From a virus, in IMG/VR virus record IMGVR_UViG_3300009370_000007, positions 43,023 to 107,022 of that record: a DNA stretch of 64,000 nt, one strand, 5' to 3'. How positions within the stretch are numbered: position 1 is the first letter of the stretch; every line of letters starts with the position of its first letter. The notes under the pieces are model-generated. The model was not told the origin of the DNA. It searched no databases and was given only the letters and a program-made list of their open reading frames with translations. Positions 14,501 to 62,399 of this stretch are shown here, one piece after another. A program made the position numbers and the translations under genes.

Positions 14501-17500
14501 TATTCCAACCTTTATTGGACCATGCTTCGCTTCGGTAAGTTTGTGAACTGTAAGGTCGTCGCCAAATTCATCAGTAGTCTCTTCTCTTGTTTGAATAAAT
14601 CCATTTACTGGGGCAGCCTGGGCGTCTTGATTATATCCATGTAGATATGCATATTGGTCATTCACTTGGCTAAAGCCGGGCCCACGTTTGTTCCTAACTG
14701 AAAGGTACAAATGCCGACCATCAGTTGCGCCGGGTTGAAATGGTTTCATCCTATCAATAGTATCACCATCTTCATATACAAACCCACCAAGATCAAGATC
14801 CTGATCTCCGGGGTGAGTAATAAAGAGCCCCTGAATTTCTGGGACTGTCAATACTCGATCATAGTATCTTGCCTCGTCAAAGTTTGCTACCATCTCTTTA
14901 GATGTACCAAAGCCTGATGCAATTCCTCCAAGGTGAACATTAACCGATGGAGCAGGCTGGCTAACTGTTATAGTAGTATTGGTATTTGCATATACAAGAC
15001 CATCATCAACATTATAGATAAAGAATGATTGTTTTGATTTATTGAAATCCCAGGTTGTAACAACAAAATTCCAGGTATTCTGTTTTATGGCACCTGTTCC
15101 GGTAAATGTTCCTCGCTGGCCAGGGCTCGTTCCAAATCCAATATAATGTTCTGGTCCTCCTCCCGCTTCCCAAAACATTGCATTAGAATAATGACCGTTT
15201 GCGCGTCTATCATTAGAAGAATATTCAACCCAAAGGTCTTTTTGCTCTAGTGTGGCATAAGAACGACCTGTTTTATTAGCATTTCCAAATCTACCATAGT
15301 TAGTGTACCCAGCATCCCAAATTGCCGACTCAGTAGCTATATCATCATAGGCAATTGGTTTGAACCATACTGCAAGGGTTCGTTCTTTGGTGTCCTGTCC
15401 CCACAAGGGTTCATCCTCATCAATTAAGTCAACAATTACTCCGGCACCATCAGTTGAACTATTAATTTCGGCATTTGAAGTAAATGAATGTCCTATGATG
15501 GCATCGGTACTCCTATGGAGTTTATTGACCACATTGGCATACCCGTTTTGGTTCGTCCCCGTCACACGAACAAGTGCCGGTCCCATATCTCCTGCATAGT
15601 CATGGAAGACGTTTGCCACCAATCCCTTCGTTCCATTATAAACCTTTGTGGTGCCACCGAATGCCGGGCCACCTCGTTTCAATGCACCTTCTTTGAATGC
15701 TCCATCAAACTTCCAATGCCCCCGAAGACCGTCTGAATCTGGAGCAGCAGGAGGTTGAATTGTTCCAACCAAATACCAACCAGATTTTGCATCGGAACTT
15801 GTATTTGCAAACATATAAATTGAATTTGAAGTTCTATTTGTTGAATTTGCCTGATATACAAATTCAAGATTGAGATCCGTATTCAGCCAGCGATCTCCAT
15901 CGGGCGCAGGATTGGCAATTCCCGACTGTGTTTTTGTTGGATCAGGGCCCCAAGGATTCCAATTTCCTCCACGTTCATGCGACATTCCTTCATAGATCCG
16001 TACTGCGCCATCAGAAAGTCCACGATTCCAATTGATCGACGGACCTTCGTCGGGAGCCATGAAGAAAGTTGGTTCTAGTGCCGAAGCCCCAGCATACGAA
16101 GTATCGCCTGCGACTTGTTCTAATTGGAGTCCTGCAAAATGCCAATTTGTTATAGCACCGGGAGTTGCTGAAAGATGTTGACGAATATCAAGTCTTGGAA
16201 TAATCCGAGTAAATGTATTTGCATATAAATTGTGCGAACCTGTATCATTGGTATATTCATCAATGTCTCCGCTAAGATCAAATAACCAAGATAGACGTTT
16301 CCATTCGTTAACTGCATCGGGGCCCTGCCGTAATTGACTGAGGGAAACATCAGAATATTCCAGCCCCCAAACATAACCACCATGAAAGGCATCCAAAGAA
16401 CCATCTATGGTTGATGAATTTGCCCCAGTAAATGTGGCTCGAACACCATGACCGACTTGAGGAAGAACATCTGTTTTAACATAGGCAGAGAATAACCACT
16501 TACTTGCCTTTGGAATATTGATAGCAAAGTCGGAACCGAAACGCTTTCTGGAGTCTGTGCCCTGAAGCATTGGATTTGTTGTGTTTGCAAATGATAATGC
16601 AACACCATAATTTGGCGAGGCATTAGCAGTCACTACTACCTTTAATGTCCTTCCTCCAACGGGAGATTCTTGAGTATCATCGAAACCAACTGAGGTCACA
16701 ATACTCGAAACTTCTGTGCCCGAATCGGGGACGAGTTCAAGTGCTTGATGAGTAATCGGATAGGGTCGTTGAATTGCTGTTGCAGGAGCATGGGTTAGTG
16801 CGCCAACAATACTATAATCATCATCGCGAGAATCAAATAACGAATATCCCCGTGGCATATAATTCTTGTTGCTGCCCAAAGAAGCCAAATAATTTGTTAG
16901 AAAGAATTTACCGAATGCTCCAAGGGGGGCATAACCGGGGGTACTGCCTGCGCCAATATCATATGTATAGGTATTTGGATTAGCCCAATACCCATCCGGC
17001 CCGGGAGGAATTGTGGCACTAGTATTCTGCCACCGCGAAATGCTCCAACTATTTACTGTTGGATACCTTCCCGTATCTACCCAAATATCACCATTGGCTA
17101 CATTTGGATATGGATTAGTAGGCTGAATAAATGCTACAATTTCGTTGTCATCTAAAATTTCAACCTGTTTAAGTCTCTCTATTAATCCTCCAGAATGATC
17201 TTCACCACTACCAAGAGGTCCAAGGAGACTGTCAAGACCATCTCCGGTAGTCAATGCAGCAGTCACACTCTGAAGAGATGTTTGGGCAGTTTCAAGTCTT
17301 CCTGCATTTCCAGAAAGATTTCGCTCGATCTCAAGAACAGTCTGATCTCTTATTTCATACCAACCAGAATGTCCCTTTGTGGACTTGGGGAATTTTTGAC
17401 CAACAGCAAGATCAGCACCAGGAAACGGATTCGTCGCAGACACATAATAAAATGCTTCACAACCAAGATTCGCCGTACCTGTATCATTGGACACTGCCCA

Positions 17501-20500
17501 GACGGCACTATCATTTGCATGGTATCGGAATACCGCAAAATTATTTGCAGTATCACACCAAAAATCTCCATGAGGATCTGCAACAACTCGACCGTTTTGA
17601 TCGTAACGAGGATCAGGTCCAAAATAATTCGGATCAGTTCCCCGATGATCGGCCAAGTGGGAAATCATTGCTCTATCTGTGAGGCCCCGGCTCCAGCTCA
17701 TTCCCGGTCCTTCGTCCGAAGTAATGTAGGCGCTCGGCAATAGGGCTTCAACATCTGGATGAATTTCTTCTAATTGAAATGCATCAAAATTTATATGGGA
17801 TGCAATATGATCTATTTGAATCCCCGGAATAAGATGAGTTACATTCGCATTATGGCTCTTTGTCAAATCAATAATACATGAATATCGGTGAAATGTCACT
17901 CCATCGGTTGAAGCTGGAAGGTCAACAGCAGAAACGCTATTTGCAAAAATATGAGAAGCCGATCCCACGTTTGAAGTATACCAAGAGAATTTCAATCCAT
18001 CTGTTATTGCTGTGTCTGATTTAACATATGCAGAATAAATCCATTTTCTTCCCTTTGGTACAAGAATTCCATATTTCCTAAAGGTTGCAATATCTGGGGT
18101 TGCAACTGGTTCAGCCGCTCTGGTACTTCTGGTATTTGCAAATAGAATTTGCATATAACTAGAAGTAGTGCCAGCTATTGTCATCTTCAAACTGTTTTCG
18201 CCAATATGTCCTACTGTATCGTCAATTGTAACAGTAGTCGAGTATTGGGGAATACCAATGGCATATGGCGTATTTGATGCCTTGCTAGTCTCTGTTATTA
18301 AATAATCATAATGCTGCTCATCAAACAAAGAGATTGGGCGAGGGAAGTAGTTCTTGGATCGGTTGGTTGCCTCTAGGTATGCCTGTAGATAGAATGAACC
18401 CAGGCCAGAAATCTCATAGTCAGGCGGGCCTTCCCATCTAACCTTTTTTGTCCCTGGAGGAAATCCTGTGTCTGGATTAGTTGGATCGTAAGTAGTTTCT
18501 GAATAATTATTAACAAATGTTGACACGCTCCATGTATTCACACGATCAAAATCATCCAAAACAGAGGTATTAATCCAAACATCATTATTGCCCAATGGAG
18601 TAGGTTCAGTCGGTTGAATGAATGTTTTAATATCTCGATCTGCCTTGGCTGCTGCATCAGCAGCATCTTGAATTCCTTTAAGTGCATCGGATACTGCCGA
18701 ATAGGCTGTTGCATTAACAACATAAATTGATGCATCACGCATCTCATACCAACCCGATTTTGGATTGCTTTCGGCAAGTTTATTATTTGGATAACGGAAT
18801 ACATAGGGAGTGAGATTTGCCGTTCCAGTTCCTTGATATGTTCCAACAGCATTTTGATAATATCGGAAAAGCTGATTATTATTTGAACCGGGTTCTGTAT
18901 TAAGCCACATATCTCCATGAGGACGTTGATTCGGCTGACCCGTAGGAGTGGTTTCTGGAAGTGGTCCGTATCCTCTCCACTTTGCACTAGAAGGATAAGT
19001 CGCGACTTGGATTTGAGCCGCTGAATTTGCAAAGAAGGTAACAACCTTACCAGAAGTTTCACTATAACTTTGTAGATACATCAATCCAATTGCATTGTTC
19101 GGGGCTCGATGCCACGTTAATGTGTTGCCGCCTCCGTCTTCATGGTCAGTTGGGATCATCCCCTCCGAGTCGTGCGCTCCAGAGTTTGCAACAAAGATTG
19201 CACCGAGATTTGCTGTTCCATTTGGATTAACAGTTTTATTTTGATGAATCCAGACATCACCATTTCCTGTTGGCTTAAAATCATCAACATCTGCATTATG
19301 ATTTTCAAAGAATGCAATGATTTCTCGATCTGCTGCTGCCTGGGCGGCGCTAGCAAGAATTTCTGCCGTATAAACTTTTTTATCACGAATATCATACCAA
19401 CCGGAATTGCTGGAGGCTGTTGGAGTTTCTCCTGGTCCATGAATTGCAGCATAGGTATGAGCATGAACTCCTGTTCCTTGATATACTGCACTACTGTTTG
19501 CAAAGTATCGGAACATCATATTGTTGTTTGCACCGGCCTCAGTATTAATCCAGAAATCTCCATGTGGCTCTGGATTTGGATACCCCGAAGGAGTTATTTC
19601 TGGATTTGGACCCATAGGCCCTGGTGCTTCATTCCCATAGAATGCAACAAGTTTTCCGTCTGTAATCCTTCTTCCAAAGATGACTGCTACACCATCGGAA
19701 GGCTCTTTAAATTCAGATGCAGTTCTATTATCCCCAACCGCTTCTTCCAATTGGAATGCATCAAGATTTACAATATTGGCTGTTCGTTTTATTTGAATCC
19801 CTGGAATAATATGAGTAGAATTTGCGCTATCGCCACTCGTTAAATCAATAACACATTCATATCGAGTAAAAACTGTTTCATTATCCTGTTCTATAAGATC
19901 GAAAGCAGAGGAAGTAGCCGGGTATCCAGATGCGTCATACTCACCATTTAAGCCCAAAATATGAGAAGCCGAACCTACATTTGAGGTATACCAAGAAAAT
20001 TTTAATCCACTTGCCAGGGCTTCATTCGATTTAACATAGGCAGAATAAATCCATTTTTTCCCCTTTGGAATAGGAATACCATATTCTCTAAAGGTTGCAA
20101 TATCTGGAGTTGCTCTAGCCAAAACATCACTTTCAGTATTTGCAAACAAAATTTGTAACATAGTACCGGAAGAACCAACAGTTGTTAATTTTAGACTGTT
20201 TTCTCCAATATGTCCTACTGTATCATCAAGAGTAACTGAACCATAGGCATCGTTAAATGTACCAATGACATATGGTATGTCTGATGCCTGTGAATCCTCT
20301 GTTATTAAATAGTCATAAGTCGGTGCATCAAATAACGAAAGTCCACGCGGCATAATATTTGTCCCACGATTAAATTTGCCCAGGACCCCAGCCGCGTAAC
20401 TTTCGAGATACATTCTTCCGATGGCACTATCTGGAGCAGTATTCCAATAAAGTATTTGTCCATCGCGGGTGACGCCAGTATCAATTGAAGGATATTCTCC

Positions 20501-23500
20501 TGCCATTGAAAGTGTATTTGCAATAAAGATTGCATTCAGATTCTTTATTCCTGTTGAGTCAATAACCTTATCTGTTTGAATCCATACATCGCCATTTCCC
20601 GTTGGAGTAAATGTACTAACAACTGTATCGGAGTCATAGAAGAATGCAAGAATTTCTCTATCGGCAGCATATTGGGCAGCCTTGCCTGCACTAAGGGCGC
20701 TAAGTGAAAGCGCGTTAACAGAATCTATTGCAGAATAACGAACCTCATACCATCCAGATTTTGCCTCTGCATATTGAGATGGTGGCACACCAAAGGTTCC
20801 CCCGGATGGAACATTCTTATATGGTGCTAATTGCTGACCATATTCTCCGTCTAATGTTCCGTGGTATCCTCCGTTATTATAATAATATAAATCAGAAACA
20901 AGATTTGCAGAACCAGTTCCATCATACACAGCAGAATTATTTGCATGATAACGATATAGTGTATTATTGTTTGCAGTATTATACCAAAGATCACCATGAG
21001 GGTCTGCATTAGGAATCTGAGTTTCCCCATCAGAAAAGACAGGACTTAAAGTTGGGTCAGGACCATTATAACGATACTTCTCTATGTCGGTCGGGGCAGA
21101 TCCATCAATAGTCCTACGTCCATGTGGCTGAATATATGTAAAGACCTTGCCGTCAGAAAGCCCCTTTAAATTAGTAAGTCCTACAAAGCTGTCAGCAGAC
21201 ATATAGTCAGAGGGTTTGGGGTTTTGTGATTCTATAGAAACTTCTTCTAATTGAAATCCATCATAATATACCGTCTTTGAACCAGCAAGAGTTGGTTTTA
21301 ATTTTAGTATAATTTTATTTAATTCGTCCTTTGGAGATACTGATAAATCAAGAATTACATATTGTCTCAACCAGCCCCGCAAACCTGCTGTAGTTAGATT
21401 GCTAATATTAGTGGCAGTATCAGTAACAACATTGGCATCTTTGGTATAATCTTTAGAGTTTTCGGCAACAATACCGGCAACCTCAGAAACGCCTCCAGCC
21501 GAATCCGTTTCTTTTGAAAAATATGAAAGTATCCACTTCTTTCCCTCTGGAATATCAATTCCATATTTTTCAAAAGTTGTAGTGTCAGGAGTTCCTGTTG
21601 CAGTTGTATTTGAAAATATAATATCATATGATCCGGCACTTCCCGATGCAACTTTTAGACTACGAGGACTGTTCCAAAATTTTGTAGAATCTAAACTAAC
21701 TGTCCAACTACCACTTGCATCATAAGTTATTGCAAAATCTTTTAGAGATCTACGATTTGCCGTATCTATAGAATAAGCAGCTTCGGGTGGAGTTCCCCCA
21801 AATAATGAAAGTTCAGTTGGAATATAATTCTTCGTTCCAGACTTGGCTTCTGCAAATAACTGAAGATAAAGATCCCCCATGAATCCAGCCGATTGATTCC
21901 CCATAGTAGCATGGTCATTGGCATTATACCAAATTCCTGCGCTGCCAGCATCAGTATTTTGCCAACGAGAAACAATCCAACTATTTGCAGGGCCTCTATT
22001 CGTATCAATCCAGATGTCTCCATTGCCCGTTGCAATTGGTTCACTATCTGAGAAAAATCCTACAACAAAATGATCTGCTGATGCTGCCTTTAATAGACCT
22101 TGATTGGCTGTTAATTCAATTCTTTCTAATTGATTATTCGCAAACAAGGCAAGATTATATGCATTTGCAGCAAGGCTATTTGCTGCATAGGCAACTGCAT
22201 TTACCGCAAGAATAGATAAGTCTTTTCCTTCATACCAACCAGTCTTAGAAGAAGCTCTATTAAATTCATTTGTATAATAAACCGTTTGGGCCCAGGTTCC
22301 TGCATTGTCCTCGCCGAGCCCCCAAGTTTTGGAGAATGATGTATTTGTTAAATATACAAATGCAGCAGTATTATTAGACGTATTAAACCAAAGGTCGCCT
22401 CTTGGATTTGGATTAGCTGTTCCATCTTCCGATATTGCAACATTAGGTCCATAGGTAGGGGCGGGTTGATGTGGGTATGGATACTGATGATCCCAAAAAA
22501 TTAATGATCTTCGATCTGCAACATTTTGGGCAGCATAGGATTGTAGATAAATTCGACCAAAGGCATCGTTTGGAGCATGACGCCATGCAAGTGCTGTGGT
22601 ATGATCGGCTGGTGTATTGGCAAATCCACCAATAGAATTTTGCCAACGATGAATTGCCTTTGTGCTTAGAGTTCCATCGGGAAGAACGGTTTTGTCATCG
22701 CCACCAGTATTTGCATTAATCCAAACATCACCATATTGGGCAGTCAGATGTTTCCATGAACCAGCATAGAAGGTATCTGTATCTTGTGCGTCGGTATAAA
22801 TGGTAACTTCATGGAGGCTTGCATTTGCAGCAAGACGTTGGGCTTCTCTTGCTGCTGCGTCGGCATTGGAAATGTCAATTCCCAGCTTAATAAGTTCCTC
22901 TTCAAGTGTAAGACTTCCAACAGAACTTCCAGATACTTGGAGAGCCGAGTTGGCAATAATGTTAACATCTATTTCACACCATGCACTCGGATCATCGTCT
23001 ATCGTTCCGCTATAGGCTTCGGCTCCTCCATCGGCCCCAATGCCGGGAGTTCCTACAAGAATATATGAGGCATTACTCTGAAAACCTAATGTTGCCGTGT
23101 CTGTATTTCCGGCACCAAAGACAGTATTCGATGCACCACAACGTACCATTGCTTCTAATAATTTGCCACCCTTTGTTGTTGGGGTTCCATAACGATTATC
23201 TCTTAGTTCACCTGAACCAATAATAAAAACATAACAATTTGGCCCTAACAGATTCAAGTCGTCTGCCAACTTGTCGGCATTCGTATGATTATCTGGAGTT
23301 GTTATATTATAACGCCAACGCAGAGGGGTGACTCCCAGTGCTGCGGGAACTGTTTGAATTCCATTTTCAGTTGAAGAAGCTGGTGCGTTCGGCATCATTG
23401 TGGTATCACCATCATCAATCGTTGCACCACGGAAACCACCAACTACTCGATCCCAAATATATACGTCAAACTCTCCTTGGTCTGCCAGTTTAGTGGCCCC

Positions 23501-25843
23501 GGTATCAACCCAATATCTAGCGGTGGCGCTTTCAGCAGCTTCAGGATACAAACCAAAACCATAGGTTGGTATACTAGGATCTGCAAATGGAGCCATATTA
23601 GCTGGATCATCAAAGCCGTTGGTTATATTTTTTCCGCCTTGAGAAATAAGTCTAAAGGAATAATGATCTTTTTTCCATGAAGGATCTTCAACTTCGCGAA
23701 GCCTTAAAGATTCAACATCGAGATGCTGGTCTGTTTGATGAAAAGCATTGGTAATTTGCAGACCAACACTCATCATTTTGGTACCCGATGTTGGATAATA
23801 ACGATAGAAATATTGAGTATGTCCAGATGCAGTTAGAGTAACTTCATCAGCAGTTATTACCCGATTTCCAGTTACAGTATTTGCAGAACCACCACCATAA
23901 GAAATATGAGTTTTAGTTTTATCATCTAAATCAGCATCATATTCCACAATCCGCAATATGGGCGCTGTAACATCCGACCCGGAGCTGACCTTTGCACTAT
24001 ATGTAATTGCCCAATGTGTTTCTCCGGGTTTTAATGCAATGGCAGGAGTCACAACACCAACGGTCTTATCTGACACAGAGGCAAATGCAGTATTTGAAAT
24101 TCGTAGAACTCGATTTCCTCTGAATCTTGGATCTGGATTTACATATCCATAGACATCTTCACTATATGATGATGTTGCATCATATCTAAATGCCTCAAGT
24201 CCAGCGGGAACCCATCTTCGCTTGTTTCCATGCTGCGCGAACTTCCCTATATTAAAATTCCAATTCTTGAATGCCATTTCACCAGCAGTTGTCAGATCAG
24301 TTCCTTGGGTATCATCTAAAAATTGTTCTTCAATCCAATCCAGAGAAGCACTAAAATTGGAAATAGACGCGCTTTCAACATGAGTTGCATTTGTAGAAAT
24401 AGTACCTAAAGCAAGATATTCTTCTGGGGAGGGAAGAACAGTCCATTCATCTGCCCCGCTAACATACATCCACCCAAGCTCAAGTTCGTTAATAGCCATT
24501 TTGAAATCATCACCATGACCGTGATTTCCAATACTATCGGAATCATAAGGATTCGTTGTATCGGATCTCCAAATAACCCACGCATCCGTATTTCCGGCAA
24601 TTGAATTAACAACCCCGGGAATAACATTCTGCCGAGTCCCGTCAACGCCAACAGTGAATCCGTTTTTTGTCGCAGAAGGTTCGCCATCTGAACCAAAGGA
24701 ATGAACCCAAAGATATTTGGCAGTATCCACATTAAATTTACTATGGTTTAGTTTAAATCCTAATGCGGGAGAATTAATATCAACTGTGGACGTAACATTT
24801 TCCAGTACATTAATTCGACTTCCATGAGAACTTAAAGCAGTCTGAAGAGATCCGGCGGGGCCACCGCCGCCGCGAATAATAGGTTGATTATCACCATCAT
24901 AGATAATAATTCCACCCGCCTGTATATTTCCATCCTTATCAATATGCCATCCCGAGCCGGGAGTAGATTGATTCCACGAAATGCTATGAATTACATTTGC
25001 AACCTTTTGATTTGTGACAGTCAGGTCTTTAATGAATGCACCAAAAATAGAGCCTTCGTTATCAATTCTTAAACTTGGATGATTGAAATCAAATATAATA
25101 TTATCATATTTAATTGAACTTATGCCTGTTGCCAAACTAGTCTCAGGTGTTGGATAGGTTAGTGTTCCATCTGTTGCATCTGTTCCCGTTAACCCACGAC
25201 AAGGATCAAGTTCAATTCTAATTCCAATAATTTCTTTATCTTTAGGAGTGACAGCCCTCCAATTAATAGTCTGCCACACATTAAGAGTGTGGTCGGGAGC
25301 AATTGGAGCAACAAAAGTAGTGGAGCCCTTTGAGTCTTTATTTGCTGCATCTCGATAGGAAAGCGTAATTGAAATTCCAGGGGTTCCATCTGTATATGAA
25401 TCTAATTTATAACTATAACTTCCCGTAAGGAATATATTCTGATAGAGTGGTTCATGATTTTCGCCCTGGCCATCAAAGTCAATATTACGATACCAATAAT
25501 TTGTAGATCCTGTATTTTCAAAATCTACACTATAGGCACCAGTAAAGGCGTCTGTACTTCTGGACCAATTTGATCCGACAGCCGTCCATCCATCGGCAGG
25601 CGAAGAGGGGTCTGCCCATTGATTAAATCGAGGATTAAATCCATAGATGGTTGCAGAATCTTGCTGGGTGTCTGTATCCCTATCAACAATGAGAGCATCT
25701 GCGGTGATAGTGCCAGCAACATGAAAGGTAGAGTTAGGAGATGCCGTATGAATACCAACACGGCCATCATACCCAACAGAAATTGATGGTTTGGTTGCCT
25801 CAAAGGTGGATCTAAATTGTGTATTACCAATAAATTGCGGCAA
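11522..25843 (-). CDS. giant modular tail fibre protein (4773 residues)
   Basis: This single frame of 14.3 kb starts with TTG at 25843, with AAGGA 8 bases upstream and no in-frame ATG nearby. The N-terminus has a fibre-type motif (VGIHTASPNSTFHVAGTI). About residues 1030-3370 hold six tandem modules built from the blocks NGDVWI-T, FRY-ANSSAVY-GTG and SGWYE-RD, separated by Ala-rich helical linkers and carbohydrate-binding-like beta domains. Residues of about 3370-3680 form a LamG/concanavalin-like domain (GLRGHWKFDG, RTLAVWFKPI, NTWNFVVTTWD, MVANFDEARYYDRVLT). The end (INAGTLTSQSIGSG..., DVDEINAGSITLGDF) resembles the C-terminal part of central tail-fibre proteins. I infer a long host-recognition fibre. 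A protein this long is exceptional for a phage, but the frame shows no interruption. Confidence 0.8.
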   Translation of the reverse strand: MPQFIGNTQFRSTFEATKPSISVGYDGRVGIHTASPNSTFHVAGTITADALIVDRDTDTQQDSATIYGFNPRFNQWADPSSPADGWTAVGSNWSRSTDAFTGAYSVDFENTGSTNYWYRNIDFDGQGENHEPLYQNIFLTGSYSYKLDSYTDGTPGISITLSYRDAANKDSKGSTTFVAPIAPDHTLNVWQTINWRAVTPKDKEIIGIRIELDPCRGLTGTDATDGTLTYPTPETSLATGISSIKYDNIIFDFNHPSLRIDNEGSIFGAFIKDLTVTNQKVANVIHSISWNQSTPGSGWHIDKDGNIQAGGIIIYDGDNQPIIRGGGGPAGSLQTALSSHGSRINVLENVTSTVDINSPALGFKLNHSKFNVDTAKYLWVHSFGSDGEPSATKNGFTVGVDGTRQNVIPGVVNSIAGNTDAWVIWRSDTTNPYDSDSIGNHGHGDDFKMAINELELGWMYVSGADEWTVLPSPEEYLALGTISTNATHVESASISNFSASLDWIEEQFLDDTQGTDLTTAGEMAFKNWNFNIGKFAQHGNKRRWVPAGLEAFRYDATSSYSEDVYGYVNPDPRFRGNRVLRISNTAFASVSDKTVGVVTPAIALKPGETHWAITYSAKVSSGSDVTAPILRIVEYDADLDDKTKTHISYGGGSANTVTGNRVITADEVTLTASGHTQYFYRYYPTSGTKMMSVGLQITNAFHQTDQHLDVESLRLREVEDPSWKKDHYSFRLISQGGKNITNGFDDPANMAPFADPSIPTYGFGLYPEAAESATARYWVDTGATKLADQGEFDVYIWDRVVGGFRGATIDDGDTTMMPNAPASSTENGIQTVPAALGVTPLRWRYNITTPDNHTNADKLADDLNLLGPNCYVFIIGSGELRDNRYGTPTTKGGKLLEAMVRCGASNTVFGAGNTDTATLGFQSNASYILVGTPGIGADGGAEAYSGTIDDDPSAWCEIDVNIIANSALQVSGSSVGSLTLEEELIKLGIDISNADAAAREAQRLAANASLHEVTIYTDAQDTDTFYAGSWKHLTAQYGDVWINANTGGDDKTVLPDGTLSTKAIHRWQNSIGGFANTPADHTTALAWRHAPNDAFGRIYLQSYAAQNVADRRSLIFWDHQYPYPHQPAPTYGPNVAISEDGTANPNPRGDLWFNTSNNTAAFVYLTNTSFSKTWGLGEDNAGTWAQTVYYTNEFNRASSKTGWYEGKDLSILAVNAVAYAANSLAANAYNLALFANNQLERIELTANQGLLKAASADHFVVGFFSDSEPIATGNGDIWIDTNRGPANSWIVSRWQNTDAGSAGIWYNANDHATMGNQSAGFMGDLYLQLFAEAKSGTKNYIPTELSLFGGTPPEAAYSIDTANRRSLKDFAITYDASGSWTVSLDSTKFWNSPRSLKVASGSAGSYDIIFSNTTATGTPDTTTFEKYGIDIPEGKKWILSYFSKETDSAGGVSEVAGIVAENSKDYTKDANVVTDTATNISNLTTAGLRGWLRQYVILDLSVSPKDELNKIILKLKPTLAGSKTVYYDGFQLEEVSIESQNPKPSDYMSADSFVGLTNLKGLSDGKVFTYIQPHGRRTIDGSAPTDIEKYRYNGPDPTLSPVFSDGETQIPNADPHGDLWYNTANNNTLYRYHANNSAVYDGTGSANLVSDLYYYNNGGYHGTLDGEYGQQLAPYKNVPSGGTFGVPPSQYAEAKSGWYEVRYSAIDSVNALSLSALSAGKAAQYAADREILAFFYDSDTVVSTFTPTGNGDVWIQTDKVIDSTGIKNLNAIFIANTLSMAGEYPSIDTGVTRDGQILYWNTAPDSAIGRMYLESYAAGVLGKFNRGTNIMPRGLSLFDAPTYDYLITEDSQASDIPYVIGTFNDAYGSVTLDDTVGHIGENSLKLTTVGSSGTMLQILFANTESDVLARATPDIATFREYGIPIPKGKKWIYSAYVKSNEALASGLKFSWYTSNVGSASHILGLNGEYDASGYPATSSAFDLIEQDNETVFTRYECVIDLTSGDSANSTHIIPGIQIKRTANIVNLDAFQLEEAVGDNRTASEFKEPSDGVAVIFGRRITDGKLVAFYGNEAPGPMGPNPEITPSGYPNPEPHGDFWINTEAGANNNMMFRYFANSSAVYQGTGVHAHTYAAIHGPGETPTASSNSGWYDIRDKKVYTAEILASAAQAAADREIIAFFENHNADVDDFKPTGNGDVWIHQNKTVNPNGTANLGAIFVANSGAHDSEGMIPTDHEDGGGNTLTWHRAPNNAIGLMYLQSYSETSGKVVTFFANSAAQIQVATYPSSAKWRGYGPLPETTPTGQPNQRPHGDMWLNTEPGSNNNQLFRYYQNAVGTYQGTGTANLTPYVFRYPNNKLAESNPKSGWYEMRDASIYVVNATAYSAVSDALKGIQDAADAAAKADRDIKTFIQPTEPTPLGNNDVWINTSVLDDFDRVNTWSVSTFVNNYSETTYDPTNPDTGFPPGTKKVRWEGPPDYEISGLGSFYLQAYLEATNRSKNYFPRPISLFDEQHYDYLITETSKASNTPYAIGIPQYSTTVTIDDTVGHIGENSLKMTIAGTTSSYMQILFANTRSTRAAEPVATPDIATFRKYGILVPKGRKWIYSAYVKSDTAITDGLKFSWYTSNVGSASHIFANSVSAVDLPASTDGVTFHRYSCIIDLTKSHNANVTHLIPGIQIDHIASHINFDAFQLEEIHPDVEALLPSAYITSDEGPGMSWSRGLTDRAMISHLADHRGTDPNYFGPDPRYDQNGRVVADPHGDFWCDTANNFAVFRYHANDSAVWAVSNDTGTANLGCEAFYYVSATNPFPGADLAVGQKFPKSTKGHSGWYEIRDQTVLEIERNLSGNAGRLETAQTSLQSVTAALTTGDGLDSLLGPLGSGEDHSGGLIERLKQVEILDDNEIVAFIQPTNPYPNVANGDIWVDTGRYPTVNSWSISRWQNTSATIPPGPDGYWANPNTYTYDIGAGSTPGYAPLGAFGKFFLTNYLASLGSNKNYMPRGYSLFDSRDDDYSIVGALTHAPATAIQRPYPITHQALELVPDSGTEVSSIVTSVGFDDTQESPVGGRTLKVVVTANASPNYGVALSFANTTNPMLQGTDSRKRFGSDFAINIPKASKWLFSAYVKTDVLPQVGHGVRATFTGANSSTIDGSLDAFHGGYVWGLEYSDVSLSQLRQGPDAVNEWKRLSWLFDLSGDIDEYTNDTGSHNLYANTFTRIIPRLDIRQHLSATPGAITNWHFAGLQLEQVAGDTSYAGASALEPTFFMAPDEGPSINWNRGLSDGAVRIYEGMSHERGGNWNPWGPDPTKTQSGIANPAPDGDRWLNTDLNLEFVYQANSTNRTSNSIYMFANTSSDAKSGWYLVGTIQPPAAPDSDGLRGHWKFDGAFKEGALKRGGPAFGGTTKVYNGTKGLVANVFHDYAGDMGPALVRVTGTNQNGYANVVNKLHRSTDAIIGHSFTSNAEINSSTDGAGVIVDLIDEDEPLWGQDTKERTLAVWFKPIAYDDIATESAIWDAGYTNYGRFGNANKTGRSYATLEQKDLWVEYSSNDRRANGHYSNAMFWEAGGGPEHYIGFGTSPGQRGTFTGTGAIKQNTWNFVVTTWDFNKSKQSFFIYNVDDGLVYANTNTTITVSQPAPSVNVHLGGIASGFGTSKEMVANFDEARYYDRVLTVPEIQGLFITHPGDQDLDLGGFVYEDGDTIDRMKPFQPGATDGRHLYLSVRNKRGPGFSQVNDQYAYLHGYNQDAQAAPVNGFIQTREETTDEFGDDLTVHKLTEAKHGPIKVGITGTKDDGYILYQTNAISGTAGVFSPATGGESRHFAFAQPTARRANSSGGWSTWRYDDGEGDWHYIYPNDKEILVIGDARVSKDPDFDVIDIWSLAPASPRTIRNSSDVIITDVDQPGVSSNWARELSSSGGAGGGIVYEDETTATILDRLADGDKYLHQPHWTRGARHGKDGEDSWIEFRANQHPTFVNNEEDYNNHLWATSIHIYWGQNITDFTTGIRDGVTKYQYAIIAKADSPGATWTNVAGVFTGLDTDYPTVSSVEDPKSWANSRPLLLANTGPDAVFFPTIEQQDPTNAKYAGRNPEGISLPTIDPVGQFVGTLRIFVGNTWWTSAAETDGIQDSDGGAPQHWHIASDTSDSRTIPSIHEVEIWRGSAGRDSYAGDFAGRPETDNSLIGDVSVNYASVIEALGGTGSEIADMIADTGDVQITDTMIEGLSGEKINAGTLTSQSIGSGAILTGHLEVLGGYNNLIFDPDFIHGYLQYPSPGVHRVTGVDSGLTESIGYGIEEQIRAHCAYDRWANGHNDGQCTANVTFDYSHPDISGYLNPAAGNIITANLHWTVAEVNRLNGGAGTHWSLIDYQDGADHITHPDAYSSDGGTVTLSADNSKMFMSVWLPPGYHSNGGSVGWWYESDWETGSQSDWEADRARVAISHNKVMFGTHGQAQNPVKLMGEGYVVGGSGRNEMRYTIGPTSNVGTDVTNPANRRLVSPANTVFSFSIWARKLDSQDHGTLYHDGTPKPPQAGNTDRYNHPGYRSVDPGPDDKNIWGPDHWDTDTDRYGALQDGAGTNRTGKANNIIRACAEFFAADGTRCGKIVGPWTEPFHQPSAGLSHVSGSVYSAGTTDADPLTKNFGRYKYGWREINFTGNGAAVEYGRSGHEINRVWSIRDRGIISPDQIPQTVRPEISYMTVGVEFSLGARVGTWGTVGDNISPNAQGAHYFLAGPKLARAVGTLDVDEINAGSITLGDFKSKYGIGTSGKMTLDGENSRIIVSD
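15740..22740 (-). repeat. six tandem modules inside the giant fibre gene
   Basis: Six units of roughly 230-500 codons follow one another, with approximate boundaries at 22740, 22080, 20645, 19318, 18628, 17145 and 15740. Each begins with an 'I.FI.P / NGDVWI.T' block, then a 'RWQNT / W..APN.AIG..YLQSY' block, then 'PHGD.W.NT..NN...FRY.AN', and ends with 'SGWYE.RD' plus an Ala-rich linker. Longer units add a 200-residue insertion (MPRGLSLFD...HIGENSLK...KGKKWIYSAYVKS). Units 3 and 5 are similar even at nucleotide level (17951-18225 against 19961-20229), which points to recent duplication. Confidence 0.8.
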
Positions 25844-56513: not shown

Positions 56514-56738
56514 TTAAAAAGGAAGTCTAGAAGTCTTTTCTATAAAATTAAGATTCTGTGCTTCGACTCTTAGTTTCTCTCTGATATTTTCATTAACCAA
56601 TTTTGCAACAGATTCAATCTCTACACCATTCTTTTCTGCATGGTATACGATTGCATCCATATAGGACATCTCTGTTCCCTTTACAATTCCTTCAATTTCC
56701 TTTGAGAAATTGTTTGCTGCGTTCCTACGATATGCCAT
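56514..56738 (-). CDS. 33: gp33 late-transcription co-activator
   Basis: The protein has 74 residues, a short form compared with T4 gp33 (112). It shows the family core FSKEIEGIVKGTEMSYMDAIVYHAEKNGVEIESVAKLVNENI and a C-terminal LNFIEKTSRLPF. In T4 the C-terminal hydrophobic motif binds the gp45 sliding clamp, and gp33 occupies the beta-flap of RNA polymerase, letting gp55 start at TATAAATA. Exact late octamers found in this window support that role. A gp55 gene is not seen here. It lies between the lysin and DUF3445 genes. Confidence 0.85.
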   Translation of the reverse strand: MAYRRNAANNFSKEIEGIVKGTEMSYMDAIVYHAEKNGVEIESVAKLVNENIREKLRVEAQNLNFIEKTSRLPF

Positions 56739-56744
56739 AATATA

Positions 56745-57356
56745 TCACCTTCCATAAAATATATGATCGTCAATCTTGGCGATCATCACCTTCTTCTTTG
56801 CCCACGACGGATTAACATAATCCGCGTGATAGTGAAATGCTTCGCCGAGGTTATCATCCACCGCAATCTTTCCATACATCACTTCAGATGCAACCTCTAC
56901 TGCCAGTTTCCACGCCTTGGATTTCTTATTGGGTATATCATGCACACCATCCCAGTACCAAGAAAACTGCATCTTTTGTTTGACCACATCACATACTGTG
57001 TCCGGCCAACCCGGATTATTTACACGATTCATTACAACCTTTGCGACTGCCACCATTCCTGCACGACTCTGATTGCTGGCTTCAAAATAAATGTTCTGTG
57101 CCATACAATAAAGCTCAGAAGATTCCTCAATAGCCTCTGCTTCCATCTTGTGTTCTTGATTCTTATATAAATCTGGAACAATAGAAGGAGCCTTCTTCTT
57201 TTCTGCTGATGGAGGAGTATGCAAAATCATACTGACCACATGACTTTGAACCTGTGGACTCTGACTCTTTCGCCATTCATAGCCAACCATAAACACACAA
57301 AAGGTGTAAAGTGAAAATGTAAATACTGTAGCAATACCTATTGCCAAATCTCTCAT
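56745..57356 (-). CDS. SleB-type cell-wall hydrolase with N-terminal membrane anchor (endolysin)
   Basis: I take ATG 57356; an in-frame TTG lies 6 bases upstream. The 203-residue protein has a hydrophobic segment at about residues 3-25 (IGIATVFTFSLYTFCVFMVG) that could be a signal anchor. A proline/lysine-rich linker follows, then a Hydrolase_2 (SleB/CwlJ) domain: CMAQNIYFEASNQSRAGMVAVAKVVMNRV, WPDTVCDVVKQKMQFSWYWDG, and FHYHADYVNPSW. The Glu in YFEA is the expected catalytic residue. The family cleaves peptidoglycan glycan strands. With its anchor it resembles signal-arrest-release endolysins. The start overlaps the stop of a 42-residue membrane protein (ATGA). Confidence 0.85.
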   Translation of the reverse strand: MRDLAIGIATVFTFSLYTFCVFMVGYEWRKSQSPQVQSHVVSMILHTPPSAEKKKAPSIVPDLYKNQEHKMEAEAIEESSELYCMAQNIYFEASNQSRAGMVAVAKVVMNRVNNPGWPDTVCDVVKQKMQFSWYWDGVHDIPNKKSKAWKLAVEVASEVMYGKIAVDDNLGEAFHYHADYVNPSWAKKKVMIAKIDDHIFYGR

Positions 57357-57481
57357 ACGCAACCCCTAAAAATAAATGAAAGTAATATAATAAAATACAA
57401 CATTATAACAAACGGATCTTTAAAAATATCAGCAAACCCATCTTCAGAAAGTGTCTCAATTACTGTTCTTATGAATCTCAT
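57353..57481 (-). CDS. 42-residue single-span membrane protein, possible holin or lysis partner
   Basis: This small frame (MRFIRTVIETLSEDGFADIF, then KDPFVIMLYFIILLSFIFRGCV) has a soluble N-terminal half and one hydrophobic segment of about 15-17 residues near the C-terminus. Its start lies 26 bases inside the end of the nuclease gene, and its stop overlaps the ATG of the lysin (ATGA). That arrangement is typical for translational coupling and fills the otherwise empty gap. Small membrane proteins encoded beside endolysins are often holins or antiholins. The ribosome site is weak (AGAGTAAG), so expression is not certain. Confidence 0.5.
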   Translation of the reverse strand: MRFIRTVIETLSEDGFADIFKDPFVIMLYFIILLSFIFRGCV

Positions 57482-58142: not shown

Positions 58143-58484
58143 CTACCATCCTTTCTCTCTATCTAATTCATTGTGTCCTTTATAGGTATCGGGAATTCCT
58201 TCCCTTTGAAGTTTTTGAAGTGGTCGCCACCCCTTGCCGTCTCGACCGGCATGGGGATGTTCTGCATTAATCTTTGCAATAACTTCTTTATATGTATCAT
58301 CTGTGGTTCGCACACCAATATTTACTGGATCTACGGTTGGGGGAGTCCCCAACATTATTTGTCTAACCTTTTTCTTGCCACAATTAGGACATTTCCTGCG
58401 AGTAGGTTTCTTGCGATCATCCATACGAATCAATTCATCGAATTGGAATTCGCAGTCCTTACATTCATAGTCATAAAGTGGCAT
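58143..58484 (-). CDS. FmdB-family zinc ribbon protein (long form)
   Basis: The protein has 113 residues. The N-terminal 45 residues form the FmdB zinc ribbon: MPLYDYECKDCEFQFDELI...RRKCPNCGKKKVRQIM, with two CxxC pairs. The remaining half is polar, with a HPHAGRDGKGWRPLQKLQREGIP segment that is probably disordered or basic. FmdB-type ribbons are often small regulators, but phage versions are of unknown function. A shorter paralogue ends 11 bases upstream. Expression from the late octamer at 58721-58728 is possible. Confidence 0.75.
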   Translation of the reverse strand: MPLYDYECKDCEFQFDELIRMDDRKKPTRRKCPNCGKKKVRQIMLGTPPTVDPVNIGVRTTDDTYKEVIAKINAEHPHAGRDGKGWRPLQKLQREGIPDTYKGHNELDREKGW

Positions 58485-58495
58485 TTAAATTATCC

Positions 58496-58681
58496 TTACT
58501 TATCATAATGCTTTGGCGTCCAACCATCCCCAGAAAGAACGAACGAAGTATTCCCAATAAGAATCTTCAACGCATTCTTCTTTTTACACTCTGGGCACTT
58601 TCGTTTTTTCTTTGCATTAATATTTTGAAGAGCTTCAAAAGTATATTTGCAATACTTACATTCATATTCATATATGGGCAT
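58496..58681 (-). CDS. FmdB-family zinc ribbon protein (short form)
   Basis: The protein has 61 residues: MPIYEYECKYCKYTFEALQN, a Lys/Arg-rich spacer, then KCPECKKKNALKILIGNTSF. This gives the same two CxxC pairs as the neighbour at 58143-58484. The two probably arose by duplication. Its start overlaps the stop of a 39-residue frame (TAATG). The function is unknown; a nucleic-acid-binding or transcription-linked role is inferred from the zinc ribbon and the basic spacer. Confidence 0.75.
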   Translation of the reverse strand: MPIYEYECKYCKYTFEALQNINAKKKRKCPECKKKNALKILIGNTSFVLSGDGWTPKHYDK

Positions 58682-58800
58682 TAATTTTTCTTTCGCTGAA
58701 TTTCTCGCAGATCACCAAAATATTTATAATTCCTAATTGCAATTACTTCCATCATATTCCGCGTATAACAATTTAAAATTTTATTAAACAACCACATCAT
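58681..58800 (-). CDS. 39-residue basic small protein
   Basis: This short frame (MMWLFNKILNCYTRNMMEVI, then AIRNYKYFGDLREIQRKKN) has a strong ribosome-binding site (AGAGGAAATAGGAA before ATG 58800), and its stop overlaps the start of the short FmdB gene (TAATG). It fills the 134-base gap after pyrB. It contains the late octamer at 58721-58728 within its codons. I recognise no family. Confidence 0.5.
   Translation of the reverse strand: MMWLFNKILNCYTRNMMEVIAIRNYKYFGDLREIQRKKN
58721..58728 (-). promoter_or_regulatory. T4-type late promoter TATAAATA inside a small gene
   Basis: This is an exact TATAAATA on the minus strand, 40 bases before the short FmdB ATG at 58681. It lies inside the 39-residue frame, so it could be a chance match in codons for Tyr-Lys-Tyr. 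The distance to the next start is similar to that of the promoter at 1124-1131, so late expression of the FmdB pair, nuclease and lysin genes is plausible. Confidence 0.45.
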
Positions 58801-58815
58801 TTCCTATTTCCTCTT

Positions 58816-59757
58816 CTATATATAAATCTCTCTCCGAAGAACCCTTAACAACAATGCCATACGAATATATAGTCCATTTTTAGCTTGCCTAAAATATGCT
58901 GCCCTCGGATCAGAATCAACTTCAACTGAAATTTCTCCCAGTCTAGGGAGCGGGTGTAAAATTCTTGCATCTGGTTTCATCATTCTCAACACAGCACCAT
59001 CAATCTTATACCGATGGGCAATCCTTTGATACTTCTCAAATAGCTCAAATGATCCTGACCTGAATCTTTCCTTTTGAAGTCGAGTCTGATAAAAAATATC
59101 AACCTCTGATGCAATGTCCTTCAGCCGATGACAGGTACTCCAACTAACATTATGTTTGTCAAAATGCTCGATCAATTCCGGTTTCATTTGCACAAACTTC
59201 GGAGCCACCAAATAGATATGTCCTATATCATATTTAGTCAACAAATATGCAAGTGAATGAATTGTTCTTCCATAATTCAAATCACCAATCAGCGCAATCC
59301 TCTTACCGTCGATTCCATTACATTCATCTTCAATAGTATAAAGATCAATCAATGCCTGAGTCGGATGTTGTCCTGCACCATCTCCAGCATTAATAATCGG
59401 GACAGAACTAACCTCGGCTGCGCGCTCTACAGATCCCTCTTCCGAATGACGAAGAACAATCACATCAGAATACTCAGACACAACCCGAATAGTATCTTCT
59501 AGAATTTCTCCCTTTGCAGCAGAAGAAAACTGTTCGGCATTTTCTGTAGAAAGAACATTGCCGCCCAATTTGAACATTGCAGACTCAAACGAAAATCGAG
59601 TTCGCGTTGATGGCTCATAAAAAAGCGATGCCATTATCGGTCTATTAATTTTTAACTCTGGTAATTTATTATTTGTTTTAAGCCAAAAAGTGGCTTCAAA
59701 AATTTCATTAAGAAATGACTTATCAAACTGTTGGGCCTTCAAAATATGCATACTCAA
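58816..59757 (-). CDS. pyrB: aspartate carbamoyltransferase, catalytic chain
   Basis: The protein has 313 residues, the normal length of bacterial PyrB (about 311). It catalyses carbamoyl phosphate plus aspartate to carbamoyl aspartate, the first committed step of pyrimidine synthesis. Substrate-binding residues all appear in place: STRTR (50-54), the Lys of SSAAKGE (82), LRH (Arg 103), QHPTQALIDLYTI (His 131), GDLNYGRTIHSLA (Arg 164), QTRLQKER (Arg 226, Gln 228) and HPLPR (268-272). No regulatory chain (PyrI) is nearby, so a simple trimer is likely. In a phage it is a metabolic gene that could raise UTP/CTP/dTTP supply. It sits in the replication/transcription operon between small phage genes. 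Confidence 0.93.
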   Translation of the reverse strand: MSMHILKAQQFDKSFLNEIFEATFWLKTNNKLPELKINRPIMASLFYEPSTRTRFSFESAMFKLGGNVLSTENAEQFSSAAKGEILEDTIRVVSEYSDVIVLRHSEEGSVERAAEVSSVPIINAGDGAGQHPTQALIDLYTIEDECNGIDGKRIALIGDLNYGRTIHSLAYLLTKYDIGHIYLVAPKFVQMKPELIEHFDKHNVSWSTCHRLKDIASEVDIFYQTRLQKERFRSGSFELFEKYQRIAHRYKIDGAVLRMMKPDARILHPLPRLGEISVEVDSDPRAAYFRQAKNGLYIRMALLLRVLRREIYI

Positions 59758-59766
59758 ATATTGCTC

Positions 59767-60000
59767 CTATTTAAAAATCCAGGCATAAAAAACATACAAC
59801 CAACCAAAACATCCATGAAGAATTGCCCATAGAACACTATGATTATACTGCCATGACATAACAATTGCCAAAACTACTCCAATAAGACTAAACACTCTAT
59901 ACACTCTCTTTTCAAACCTCGACAACACATCTTGTGTCTTTTGATTATGGTCTTGCCATCCAGAAGGCATGAATCTACTCCAACCCGTATCCACCTTCAA
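59767..60000 (-). CDS. small membrane protein with two predicted spans
   Basis: The protein has 77 residues. A polar N-terminal part (MKVDTGWSRFMPSGWQDHNQ...) is followed by two hydrophobic segments (VFSLIGVVLAIVMSW and SVLWAILHGCFGWLYVFYAW) around a short YNH turn. Similar small proteins with a 'W..NHS..WAILHG..GW.YV.Y' pattern are frequent in marine phages; I know no function. A holin-like role is possible because of size and two spans, but it does not adjoin the lysin. Its start overlaps the sigma-like gene by 26 bases. Confidence 0.65.
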   Translation of the reverse strand: MKVDTGWSRFMPSGWQDHNQKTQDVLSRFEKRVYRVFSLIGVVLAIVMSWQYNHSVLWAILHGCFGWLYVFYAWIFK

Positions 60001-60289
60001 CTAGAGCATCACGAACCTTATTTAAAGCACGGTTCTCAAGTTGGCGAACTCGTTCTATAGAAACCGGCAATCCAGTTTCAATATTAACAATCTTATTGCG
60101 AACTTCGTCAAAAGTTCTCCCCTCATAACTATGCAAAATAAGAATCCTAGATTCACGATGGGGAAGTTTAGCCATTTCCTCAAAGGCCTTTCCCAAAGTT
60201 TCTTTACGAAGAAAATGCTGAAGCGGAGAAAGAGATTCCTCATCAACGATATTTTCCGGGTTAATTTTTTCTACGGGTTGCCAGTTCAT
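59975..60289 (-). CDS. stand-alone sigma-70 region 4-like protein
   Basis: The protein has 104 residues. Residues of about 21-50 (SPLQHFLRKETLGKAFEEMA, then KLPHRESRILIL) match region 4.1. Residues of about 57-95 (GRTFDEVRNKI...GLPVSIERVRQLENRALNKVRDAL) match the helix-turn-helix of region 4.2, including the RxRQLE.RALNK recognition-helix pattern of RpoD. No regions 2 or 3 are present, and there is no room for them. Such a protein could contact the RNA polymerase beta-flap or a -35 element. T4 gp55 is different: it resembles region 2 and lacks region 4. Ribosome site TAGGAGCAAAAA precedes ATG 60289. Confidence 0.75.
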   Translation of the reverse strand: MNWQPVEKINPENIVDEESLSPLQHFLRKETLGKAFEEMAKLPHRESRILILHSYEGRTFDEVRNKIVNIETGLPVSIERVRQLENRALNKVRDALVEGGYGLE

Positions 60290-60317: not shown

Positions 60318-60596
60318 TTATAAGCCTAATCGTTGCCGATCCTTTTCCTCCGAACACTCTTCGCAGGCGTATAGGGCTTTTGATTTCACTCGTTCATATT
60401 CGCCGTCAATAAAAACTCGGCGAACTTGATTCACAGGTTCCTCACAAAAGTCACAAACAAAATCTGCAAGATATTCTTCCTGTGTGTTCTTTGCACCACC
60501 TCTAGGTTCCCGGCGATCCTTCATCGGACCACCAGAGCGGAGGCAGGCATCCATCGCATTATAATCGCGAGGCTTATTAGGTTTCTTGTTCGCCAA
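60318..60596 (-). CDS. small zinc-binding protein (TTG start)
   Basis: I take TTG 60596 because AAGGAG lies 6 bases upstream; a longer in-frame start would overlap the preceding gene further. The 92-residue protein starts MANKKPNKPRDYNAMDACLR, with a Gly/Arg-rich stretch (SGGPMKDRREPRGGAKN). It then has FVCDFCEEPV...YACEECSEEK, two CxxC pairs that should bind zinc. I recognise no family. It overlaps the upstream gene by 20 bases and precedes the sigma-like gene by 28 bases. Confidence 0.6.
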   Translation of the reverse strand: MANKKPNKPRDYNAMDACLRSGGPMKDRREPRGGAKNTQEEYLADFVCDFCEEPVNQVRRVFIDGEYERVKSKALYACEECSEEKDRQRLGL

Positions 60597-60837
60597 GATT
60601 ATCTCCTTCGTGGAATCCACACTTGGGGCAAATATCATTCATAATTCCGCGTGAACAAAAATCAATATTTCCCTCTTTGTTTACAAAACGACTGAGAGTA
60701 CCGTCATTAACCAAATACTCCAACGTCCCCTTCATTCCAATTTCAATTCCATTACTTCGACCAAAATAAAAATTAATACAGGCAGCAGCTATGACCGTTG
60801 CCAATAAAACCATTTCAAGAATTGTTAAATCCAACAA
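60577..60837 (-). CDS. membrane-anchored small protein with CxxC (TTG start)
   Basis: The start TTG at 60837 has AAGGA 8 bases upstream; the first in-frame ATG is 8 codons later and lacks a ribosome site. The 86-residue protein has a hydrophobic segment at about residues 4-24 (LTILEMVLLATVIAAACINF). A soluble part ends in CPKCGFHEGDN, which could bind metal with one more ligand such as the Cys at FCSRG. It is the first gene behind the late octamer at 60859-60866. No family is recognised. Confidence 0.6.
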   Translation of the reverse strand: MLDLTILEMVLLATVIAAACINFYFGRSNGIEIGMKGTLEYLVNDGTLSRFVNKEGNIDFCSRGIMNDICPKCGFHEGDNLGEQET

Positions 60838-60858: not shown

Positions 60859-60866
60859 TATTTATA
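60859..60866 (-). promoter_or_regulatory. T4-type late promoter TATAAATA directly behind a terminator
   Basis: This is an exact TATAAATA on the minus strand, 22 bases before the TTG start at 60837, the same spacing as the gp25 promoter. It begins 7 bases after the terminator stem, so the U-tract of the terminator (CTTTTTTATAAATA) runs into the promoter. This separates upstream transcription from late transcription of the genes below 60837. Confidence 0.7.
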
Positions 60867-60872
60867 AAAAAG

Positions 60873-60897
60873 ACCGGGGAGTGGCAAGCTCCCCGGT
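60873..60897 (-). terminator. rho-independent terminator of the structured RNA
   Basis: A perfect 9-bp stem (ACCGGGGAG and CTCCCCGGT) with a 7-base loop (60873-60881 and 60889-60897) is followed on the minus strand by CTTTTTTATAAAT, a good U-tract. The plus strand has only TTTCGATTTC behind it, so termination is mainly for leftward transcripts coming through 61325-60909. Confidence 0.85.
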
Positions 60898-61343: not shown

Positions 61344-61547
61344 TTATGAATACACTTCATCTTCATAAAGTTCTTCGTAATAAGTATCATACTCTTGATT
61401 TGTAGTCATATCCTTGATTAACTTTTCTGCATCTCGGCGGCGGTTGCGTCTCTTTTTGTTTGAGTTTTTCTTCCCACCGGCCCAAAACTGTTTCTCATCT
61501 AGATAGTCATCGAACTGCTCTTTCTTATTACGGTTCTTCTTCGACAT
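61344..61547 (-). CDS. small basic/acidic protein downstream of RNase H
   Basis: The protein has 67 residues. The N-terminal two thirds are very basic (KKNRNKKEQF..., GGKKNSNKKRRNRRRDAEKL), and the end is acidic and Tyr-rich (YDTYYEELYEDEVYS). It starts 3 bases after the RNase H stop and ends just before the candidate RNA. It is probably nucleic-acid binding or a ribosome/RNA-associated protein by composition. I recognise no family. Confidence 0.55.
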   Translation of the reverse strand: MSKKNRNKKEQFDDYLDEKQFWAGGKKNSNKKRRNRRRDAEKLIKDMTTNQEYDTYYEELYEDEVYS

Positions 61548-61550
61548 TGT

Positions 61551-62399
61551 TTAAAACTCCTGTATATTTTCCATTAGTAGTTTAAGATTATGTTTCACGA
61601 AGTAGTTGAATAGATTACTTCGATCCGCAGGCTCTTTGGAATACTGATCCAAAATTTCCTTGGATACATCTTCCGGTATACATTCCAAATCAATCAATTG
61701 CTCGTTCCTACGATAGCCGCGCAACATCGCGTCATCGCAAAAATCTTCTGGGTTGGATACCAACCAACCCTCTACTTTTTTAGTTGAAATTGGGCGTTGT
61801 CTTTTACCGGAGAGAAGTACATCATCGGCACTCAGAAAATTCGGAATGCCGTCGCCTCGATCTCCGCGTAGGATCTGTTCTTTAAGAAACTCGCCAGCCT
61901 TTTTGGTTTTGAGAAACTTCTTTTGAACAGGTGCATACTGATCCACATTTAAAATCTTTTGCAGTTGCATAAAATCTTTGTCGCCTGATAAAATCAAAGT
62001 TGGTTCAAACGGACTCTTATTCAAGACAATTGTTCCAATAATATCATCGGCTTCTGCACTGTCCACATCGACAACCTTATATGGAAAATAATCTTTCAGT
62101 TCGTCTCTAATTTTATTTAGCGTTTCAAAGATTTCGTTCCAATTCAAACCGGACTGTGTTCGATCTCTCTTGCGTCCTGCTTTGTAATAAGGAAAAAGTG
62201 TTTTTCTCCAATAATTTCTTCCATCACAACAGATCACAGGCTCCCCGTACTTCTCCCCAAACTTAACCTTATAGGCTCGGATAGAATTGAGAACCATATG
62301 TCGAATCAAATCTTCATTGATCTCTGCATTCTTATTATATGTGTTTATACTTACCATTAAATTGCTAATGGCAACTTGATTGTAGTCTACTAAAATCAT
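61551..62399 (-). CDS. rnh: T4-type RNase H (5'-3' exonuclease / flap nuclease)
   Basis: The protein has 282 residues (T4 RNase H has 305). The FEN/PIN-type acidic centre is visible: VDYNQVAISN at the N-terminus, VICCDGRNYWRKTLFPYYKAGRKRDR, VDSAEADDIIGTI and LILSGDKDFMQLQ. A helical C-terminal part follows (FNYFVKHNLKLLMENIQEF). T4 RNase H removes RNA primers on the lagging strand and interacts with gp32, which is encoded about 7 kb downstream in the same direction. Its start overlaps the stop of the next gene upstream (TAATG). Confidence 0.9.
   Translation of the reverse strand: MILVDYNQVAISNLMVSINTYNKNAEINEDLIRHMVLNSIRAYKVKFGEKYGEPVICCDGRNYWRKTLFPYYKAGRKRDRTQSGLNWNEIFETLNKIRDELKDYFPYKVVDVDSAEADDIIGTIVLNKSPFEPTLILSGDKDFMQLQKILNVDQYAPVQKKFLKTKKAGEFLKEQILRGDRGDGIPNFLSADDVLLSGKRQRPISTKKVEGWLVSNPEDFCDDAMLRGYRRNEQLIDLECIPEDVSKEILDQYSKEPADRSNLFNYFVKHNLKLLMENIQEF

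Follow-up and report, generated by a model that had tools for sequence, protein, structure and literature searches.

A free-standing sigma-70 region 4 protein in a T4-like phage that also encodes gp55 and gp33

Late transcription in phage T4 is the textbook example of a split sigma, in which gp55 stands for region 2 and gp33, an unrelated protein, mimics sigma domain 4. The docking site of gp33 on the beta-flap of RNA polymerase is the same as that of sigma domain 4, and the combination of gp55 and gp33 has been termed a split sigma (PMC2988020). Phage proteins annotated as "Sigma70_r4 domain containing" are found in BFVD; neither the domain nor the existence of region-4-only proteins in phages is new.

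The DNA analysed here, a stretch of 64,000 bases referred to below as the window, spans positions 43023-107022 of a virus record that is 107,022 bases long. This record is a fragment of a T4-like genome, with 43-55% identity between its gp23, gp20, gp17, gp46 and uvsW and their counterparts in cyanophage S-RSM4. The minus strand of the window includes an ORF of 4,773 aa (11522-25843), and other giant ORFs reach 2,875 and 1,750 aa, all of them probably encoding tail or fibre proteins. No tRNA was found within the whole window, nor any RNA family in the area described below.

Three proteins of interest for late transcription are encoded by this phage: gp55, gp33 and, additionally, a true sigma domain 4. 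A T4 relative carrying a detached, true sigma domain 4 would be a natural test of the competition between flap occupants and, in the same phage, of whether gp55 still works with a true region 4. The broader significance is modest, taking into account that a single lineage is concerned, that the evidence is sequence-based, and that region-4-only proteins occur in other phages.

The region 4 protein, its predicted fold and its distribution

The gene for the stand-alone sigma-70 region 4 protein (59975..60289, minus strand) encodes 104 aa and starts with an ATG that has a GGAG ribosome-binding site a short way upstream. Its product matches Pfam Sigma70_r4 (PF04545) with an E-value of 5.6e-10 and 39 bits (curated cut-off, 24.1), this being the only Pfam family that exceeds its own cut-off on this ORF. 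In NCBIfam, 34 families match at E<=1, and the best 25 of these 34 are sigma factors throughout, headed by RpoH (28.5 bits, residues 29-97); the alignments fall on the C-terminal ends of the sigma factors, which is the place of region 4. The best PHROG match is phrog_351, RNA polymerase sigma factor. Judged by these profiles, the region 4 match is confirmed as real and lies far above chance. No trace of regions 2 or 3 was detected in the 104-aa protein with the Pfam and NCBIfam profiles, and the matches in Pfam, NCBIfam and PHROG bear out the first-pass annotation, according to which the protein is confined to regions 4.1 and 4.2. An identical copy of the sequence exists in an independent contig (L001/L010).

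Other assignments were considered and rejected. A complete sigma factor is ruled out, as only region 4 matches and Sigma70_r2 is absent at this gene and present at gp55 alone. A better match to a plain helix-turn-helix (HTH) regulator, named beforehand as a result that would refute the reading, was sought in Pfam and NCBIfam, and no such family appeared either in Pfam at E<=1 or among the best 25 of the 34 NCBIfam families. Membership in the gp33 family (phrog_254) was also discarded, given that only sigma or unknown PHROG families match and that gp33 is a separate gene.

Prediction from the single sequence gave a poor model (pLDDT 53), and an AlphaFold2 model built on an alignment of 27 viral region 4 stretches was used instead (pLDDT 84 overall, 92-97 in the core). 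In this model, a poorly modelled N-terminus (residues 1-21) is followed by helices at 22-40, 44-55, 60-66 and 78-98, with region 4.1 at about 37-57, the HTH of region 4.2 at about 59-97 and, within the latter, a 7-residue insertion at about 67-75. The fold was assigned on probability, TM-score and the Z-scores of a second-look aligner, the Foldseek E-values being all >0.001. The top structures were sigma domains 4 (sigma-E, sigma-L and sigma-A), with Z of 10-11: 6dv9_F was matched with Z 11.3 and 1.9 A over 76 residues; 2h27_A, region 4 of sigma-E on -35 DNA, with Z 10.8 and 2.6 A over 71 residues; and domain 4 of Thermus sigma-A with about Z 10. The protein is thus predicted to have the domain 4 fold, with the helices of 4.1 and the HTH of 4.2, a match that is not independent of the sequence result because the alignment behind the model held region 4 sequences.

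Within region 4.2, E79, R80, R82, Q83, E85 and A88, invariant in 30 viral sequences, are kept; E79, R80, R82 and Q83 belong to the recognition helix, most of whose residues are retained. Departures from the consensus are H53, in place of a near-invariant Arg of region 4.1, and I78, at a position where Arg is usual. Moreover, the conserved Thr and the ERVRQ motif are separated by 20 residues, versus 13 in 61 of the 69 viral region 4s scored; this is the longest genuine spacing among the 69, the single longer value (38, in L176) being due to a misplaced motif. Isolated bridge residues at positions 68 and 75 give the insertion the appearance of a small hairpin in the model, and it may change the way in which DNA is read. 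The unusual points of this protein are its coexistence with gp55 and gp33, and the seven-residue HTH insertion, which was unseen in the comparison set.

Homologues of the ORF were found neither among 50,697 phage records at E<=0.01 (weak matches alone appeared at E<=10) nor, by a peptide-pattern scan, among 84,980 species genomes. In IMG/VR, a single contig matches; it is near-identical, sharing 99.85% identity with the window across 4,740 bases. Contig L010 (1-8522) runs past the end of the window into a cluster that, as read from the sequences, resembles nucleotide-sugar and glycan genes, and it differs from the window at 61500-61560, where one of the differences is an indel close to the gap that separates the ORF at 61344-61547 from the RNase H gene.

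Across a further 98 related records, Sigma70_r4 never exceeded its cut-off; as many of these records are fragments, this means rarity of region 4 among relatives and not its absence. In the syntenic relative L073/L074, different ORFs lie between the same anchor genes. Taking into account these two results, the region 4 gene is accessory cargo of one T4-like lineage, and a region 4 beside gp55 and gp33 was seen in no other record searched. T4 itself (L152, NC_000866 168763-168873) gave a sub-threshold Sigma70_r4 score of 20.9 bits in an unrelated frame of 312 aa, probably rIIB.

Proteins of the same general kind appeared in a motif scan of IMG/VR. Among the matches listed there are ORFs of about 95-112 aa with complete 4.1 and 4.2 (L201, L230, L171, L183, L209, L225) and ORFs of about 62-108 aa with 4.2 only (e.g., L168, L222, L173). 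In this region-4-only set, the T4-type Gp23 capsid gene was found in 0 of 26 records tested, and Sigma70_r2 in 0 of 22.

Locus, late promoters and the gp55 and gp33 genes

All genes from 60837 down to 54637 lie on the minus strand. The first gene of the unit (60577..60837, minus strand; 86 aa) has a weak homologue in L073. It is followed, just 5' of the region 4 gene, by a Cys-rich protein of 106 aa (60318..60638, minus strand) without a sigma family match in Pfam or PHROG and, just 3', by the ORF of a small membrane protein (59767..60000, minus strand), which has a 52% homologue in locus L014, there without a region 4 neighbour. The variable segment ends with pyrB, the aspartate carbamoyltransferase catalytic chain (58816..59757, minus strand; TIGR00670, 322 bits). 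The nearest cellular match found for pyrB was a Latescibacterota MAG (58%), followed by Tumebacillus (55-57%), and no clear host signal was obtained from this comparison.

Further downstream, two adjacent small zinc-ribbon proteins (58143-58484 and 58496-58681, minus strand) match phage transcriptional regulator families, including FmdB-like ones, and an endolysin-like hydrolase (56745-57362, minus strand; phrog_938, E 1.2e-25) adjoins gp33 on its upstream side. The gp33-type late-transcription coactivator itself (56514..56738, minus strand) has 74 aa and matches phrog_254 with an E-value of 4.7e-19. The region 4 gene had been described as near gp33; it is on the same strand, although 3.2 kb upstream, with at least six genes between them.

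The gene for gp55 lies outside the window, at 21157-21759 of the record, about 81 kb from the region 4 gene. Its 200-aa product is of region 2 type, with 54% identity to gp55 of S-RSM4 over the alignment and a sub-threshold score of 16.9 bits against Sigma70_r2, and no region 4 was found in it by profile search. Thus, the phage of the region 4 protein has both a gp55 devoid of region 4 and a gp33, the two T4 components from which the first-pass annotation had argued. A search for the sliding clamp, gp45, came up empty in both the record and the near-identical contig, each of which is a fragment. By gp55, the nearest relative found is a 5.8-kb contig (L274; 91% identical), and the region 4 locus falls beyond its length.

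An exact T4-type late -10, TATAAATA, is predicted at 60859..60866 (minus strand), with 21 nt separating it from the first gene of the unit. A strong predicted intrinsic terminator (60873..60897, minus strand), with 9 pairs, 7 of them G-C, and a T tract that abuts this late -10 at 60866, ends the preceding unit. A second exact copy of the late -10 (58721..58728, minus strand) heads the zinc-ribbon/exonuclease/endolysin/gp33 module, and in the relative L073 a late -10 is equally placed before the gp33 module, at 8874. Of the 12 exact occurrences in the record as a whole, 7 precede a gene start by no more than 120 nt, compared with 12% for all 8-mers built from the same letters. Late consensus sequences that closely resemble one another have been described in phages of the T4 type, cyanophage S-PM2 among them (PMC2988020). 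The region 4 gene is probably expressed late, from a promoter of gp55 type.

Since separate exact late -10 elements head the two modules (60866 and 58728), the proposal that the region 4 gene shares an operon with gp33 is doubtful, and the two genes probably belong to different primary units. Read-through from the region 4 unit into the gp33 module is possible, because no minus-strand terminator is predicted between the two genes. Earlier expression is also possible, taking into account a TATAAT-like sequence, with a TG upstream of it, that is present directly before the region 4 gene.

Possible roles of a free sigma domain 4

The explanation that we favour, tentatively and at somewhat under an even chance, is that of a late-made, flap-docking free sigma domain 4, which would compete with host sigma-4 or gp33, or modulate promoters in a limited way. 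The free-standing domain would be produced late from its gp55-type promoter and would dock on the tip of the beta-flap of RNA polymerase, the site of host sigma domain 4 and gp33. Once docked, it would displace host sigma-4 or modulate the gp33-bound polymerase, and it could possibly contribute contacts with DNA at a restricted group of promoters. That it would compete for the flap can be soundly inferred, because the beta-flap is the docking site of both gp33 and sigma domain 4 (PMC2988020). By such a mechanism, the protein may fine-tune RNA polymerase late in infection. Given that its own promoter appears late and that the searched relatives do without the gene, it would be dispensable for the onset of late transcription.

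The computed part of this explanation consists of the complete region 4, the coexistence with gp55 and gp33, and the exact late -10 heading the unit. Against it, H53, I78 and the HTH insertion depart from consensus, the late promoter is a prediction made from the sequence, and most of the relatives searched are fragments. Flap competition or limited promoter modulation is nevertheless preferred to plain DNA binding, a split sigma, a remnant or a decoy.

Unlikely, although the foremost of the alternatives, is a plain DNA-binding regulator, in which the region 4 fold would act as an ordinary operator-binding HTH without docking on RNA polymerase. The HTH and its recognition helix are kept, the hairpin-like insertion could add DNA contacts, and other phages have 4.2-only proteins lacking any 4.1 (L168, L222, L173). 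However, the complete 4.1 retained here would be superfluous for a pure HTH, and the profiles matched belong to sigma factors, HTH regulator families being absent from Pfam at E<=1 and from the best 25 NCBIfam families.

It had also been suggested that the protein might supply -35 contacts to a split sigma. In a true split sigma of the SigO/RsoA kind, it would pair with gp55, as region 2, and read a -35 at a special class of promoters. The phage does have a region 2 protein without region 4 and a region 4 protein without region 2, a precedent is known (PMC8103513), and the name has been given to gp55 and gp33 themselves (PMC2988020). When the seven late promoters were searched for a shared -35 6-mer, the best score was 29/42, equalled by 27% of shuffles, so that no shared element beyond chance was found, in a set of seven sequences that has little power. 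The search took in late promoters alone, early and middle promoters, like early and replication genes, being mostly outside the record. As these seven promoters share no -35, a split sigma of gp55 plus region 4 is unlikely at ordinary late promoters, and this part of the suggestion finds no support there. In addition, gp33 is also encoded and would be expected on the flap, and related phages do without the region 4 protein. A split sigma restricted to a special promoter class is regarded as rather improbable.

A slightly lower probability is given to the gene being a leftover of an acquired sigma factor, now decaying or neutral. The sporadic presence in a single lineage, and the deviation of H53 and the HTH insertion from consensus, are what such a remnant might leave; by contrast, the ORF is intact, with a start and a ribosome-binding site, is tightly packed with its neighbours, is identical in two contigs and retains the six most constrained residues, and the ORF just 5' of it has no sigma family match.

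Lower still, and quite improbable, stands a switchable split sigma, in which gp55 would have alternative flap partners: gp33 at clamp-activated late promoters without a -35, or sigma domain 4 at a separate class with an upstream element. The poorest prospects are those of a decoy that would bind an anti-sigma factor of the host, or some other regulator that recognises region 4, and so free or redirect the host sigma: several anti-sigma factors and activators target region 4 on its own, and the fold matches include solved region 4 complexes with RslA, RsdA and WhiB1, but no sequence feature indicates such a partner.

Comparison with known systems

With domain 4 of RpoH, FliA/WhiG, RpoD and ECF sigma factors, the phage protein has in common the complete 4.1 and 4.2, the same modelled fold and the recognition-helix core ERVRQ-E--AL. 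Unlike these bacterial factors, it lacks regions 1-3, contains a 7-residue HTH insertion and carries I78 and H53 where Arg is usual. Like T4 gp33, it is a small protein in a gp55-bearing phage and would be expected to be a rival for the same flap site. However, gp33 does not resemble sigma in sequence, nor does it recognise specific DNA sequences (PMC2988020), whereas the phage protein is a true sigma homologue, and the phage carries its gp33 as a separate gene.

As in SigO-RsoA of Bacillus subtilis, sigma 2-type and sigma 4-type functions reside on separate polypeptides. SigO and RsoA have been shown to act together, whereas gp55 is encoded here about 81 kb away and the pairing is putative. 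Other region-4-only phage proteins (IMG/VR L201, L230, L171, L209, L225, and BFVD entries) resemble it in having about 80-140 aa and region 4 alone; the IMG/VR records of this kind that were tested differ in being without Gp23 and Sigma70_r2 and in their normal HTH spacing.

Finally, P7 of phage Xp10 is a different protein from the one described here and is not known to be a sigma homologue. P7 binds the beta-flap and displaces sigma (PMC3985653), and it is in the kind of effect proposed, displacement of the host sigma via the flap, that the region 4 protein would resemble it.
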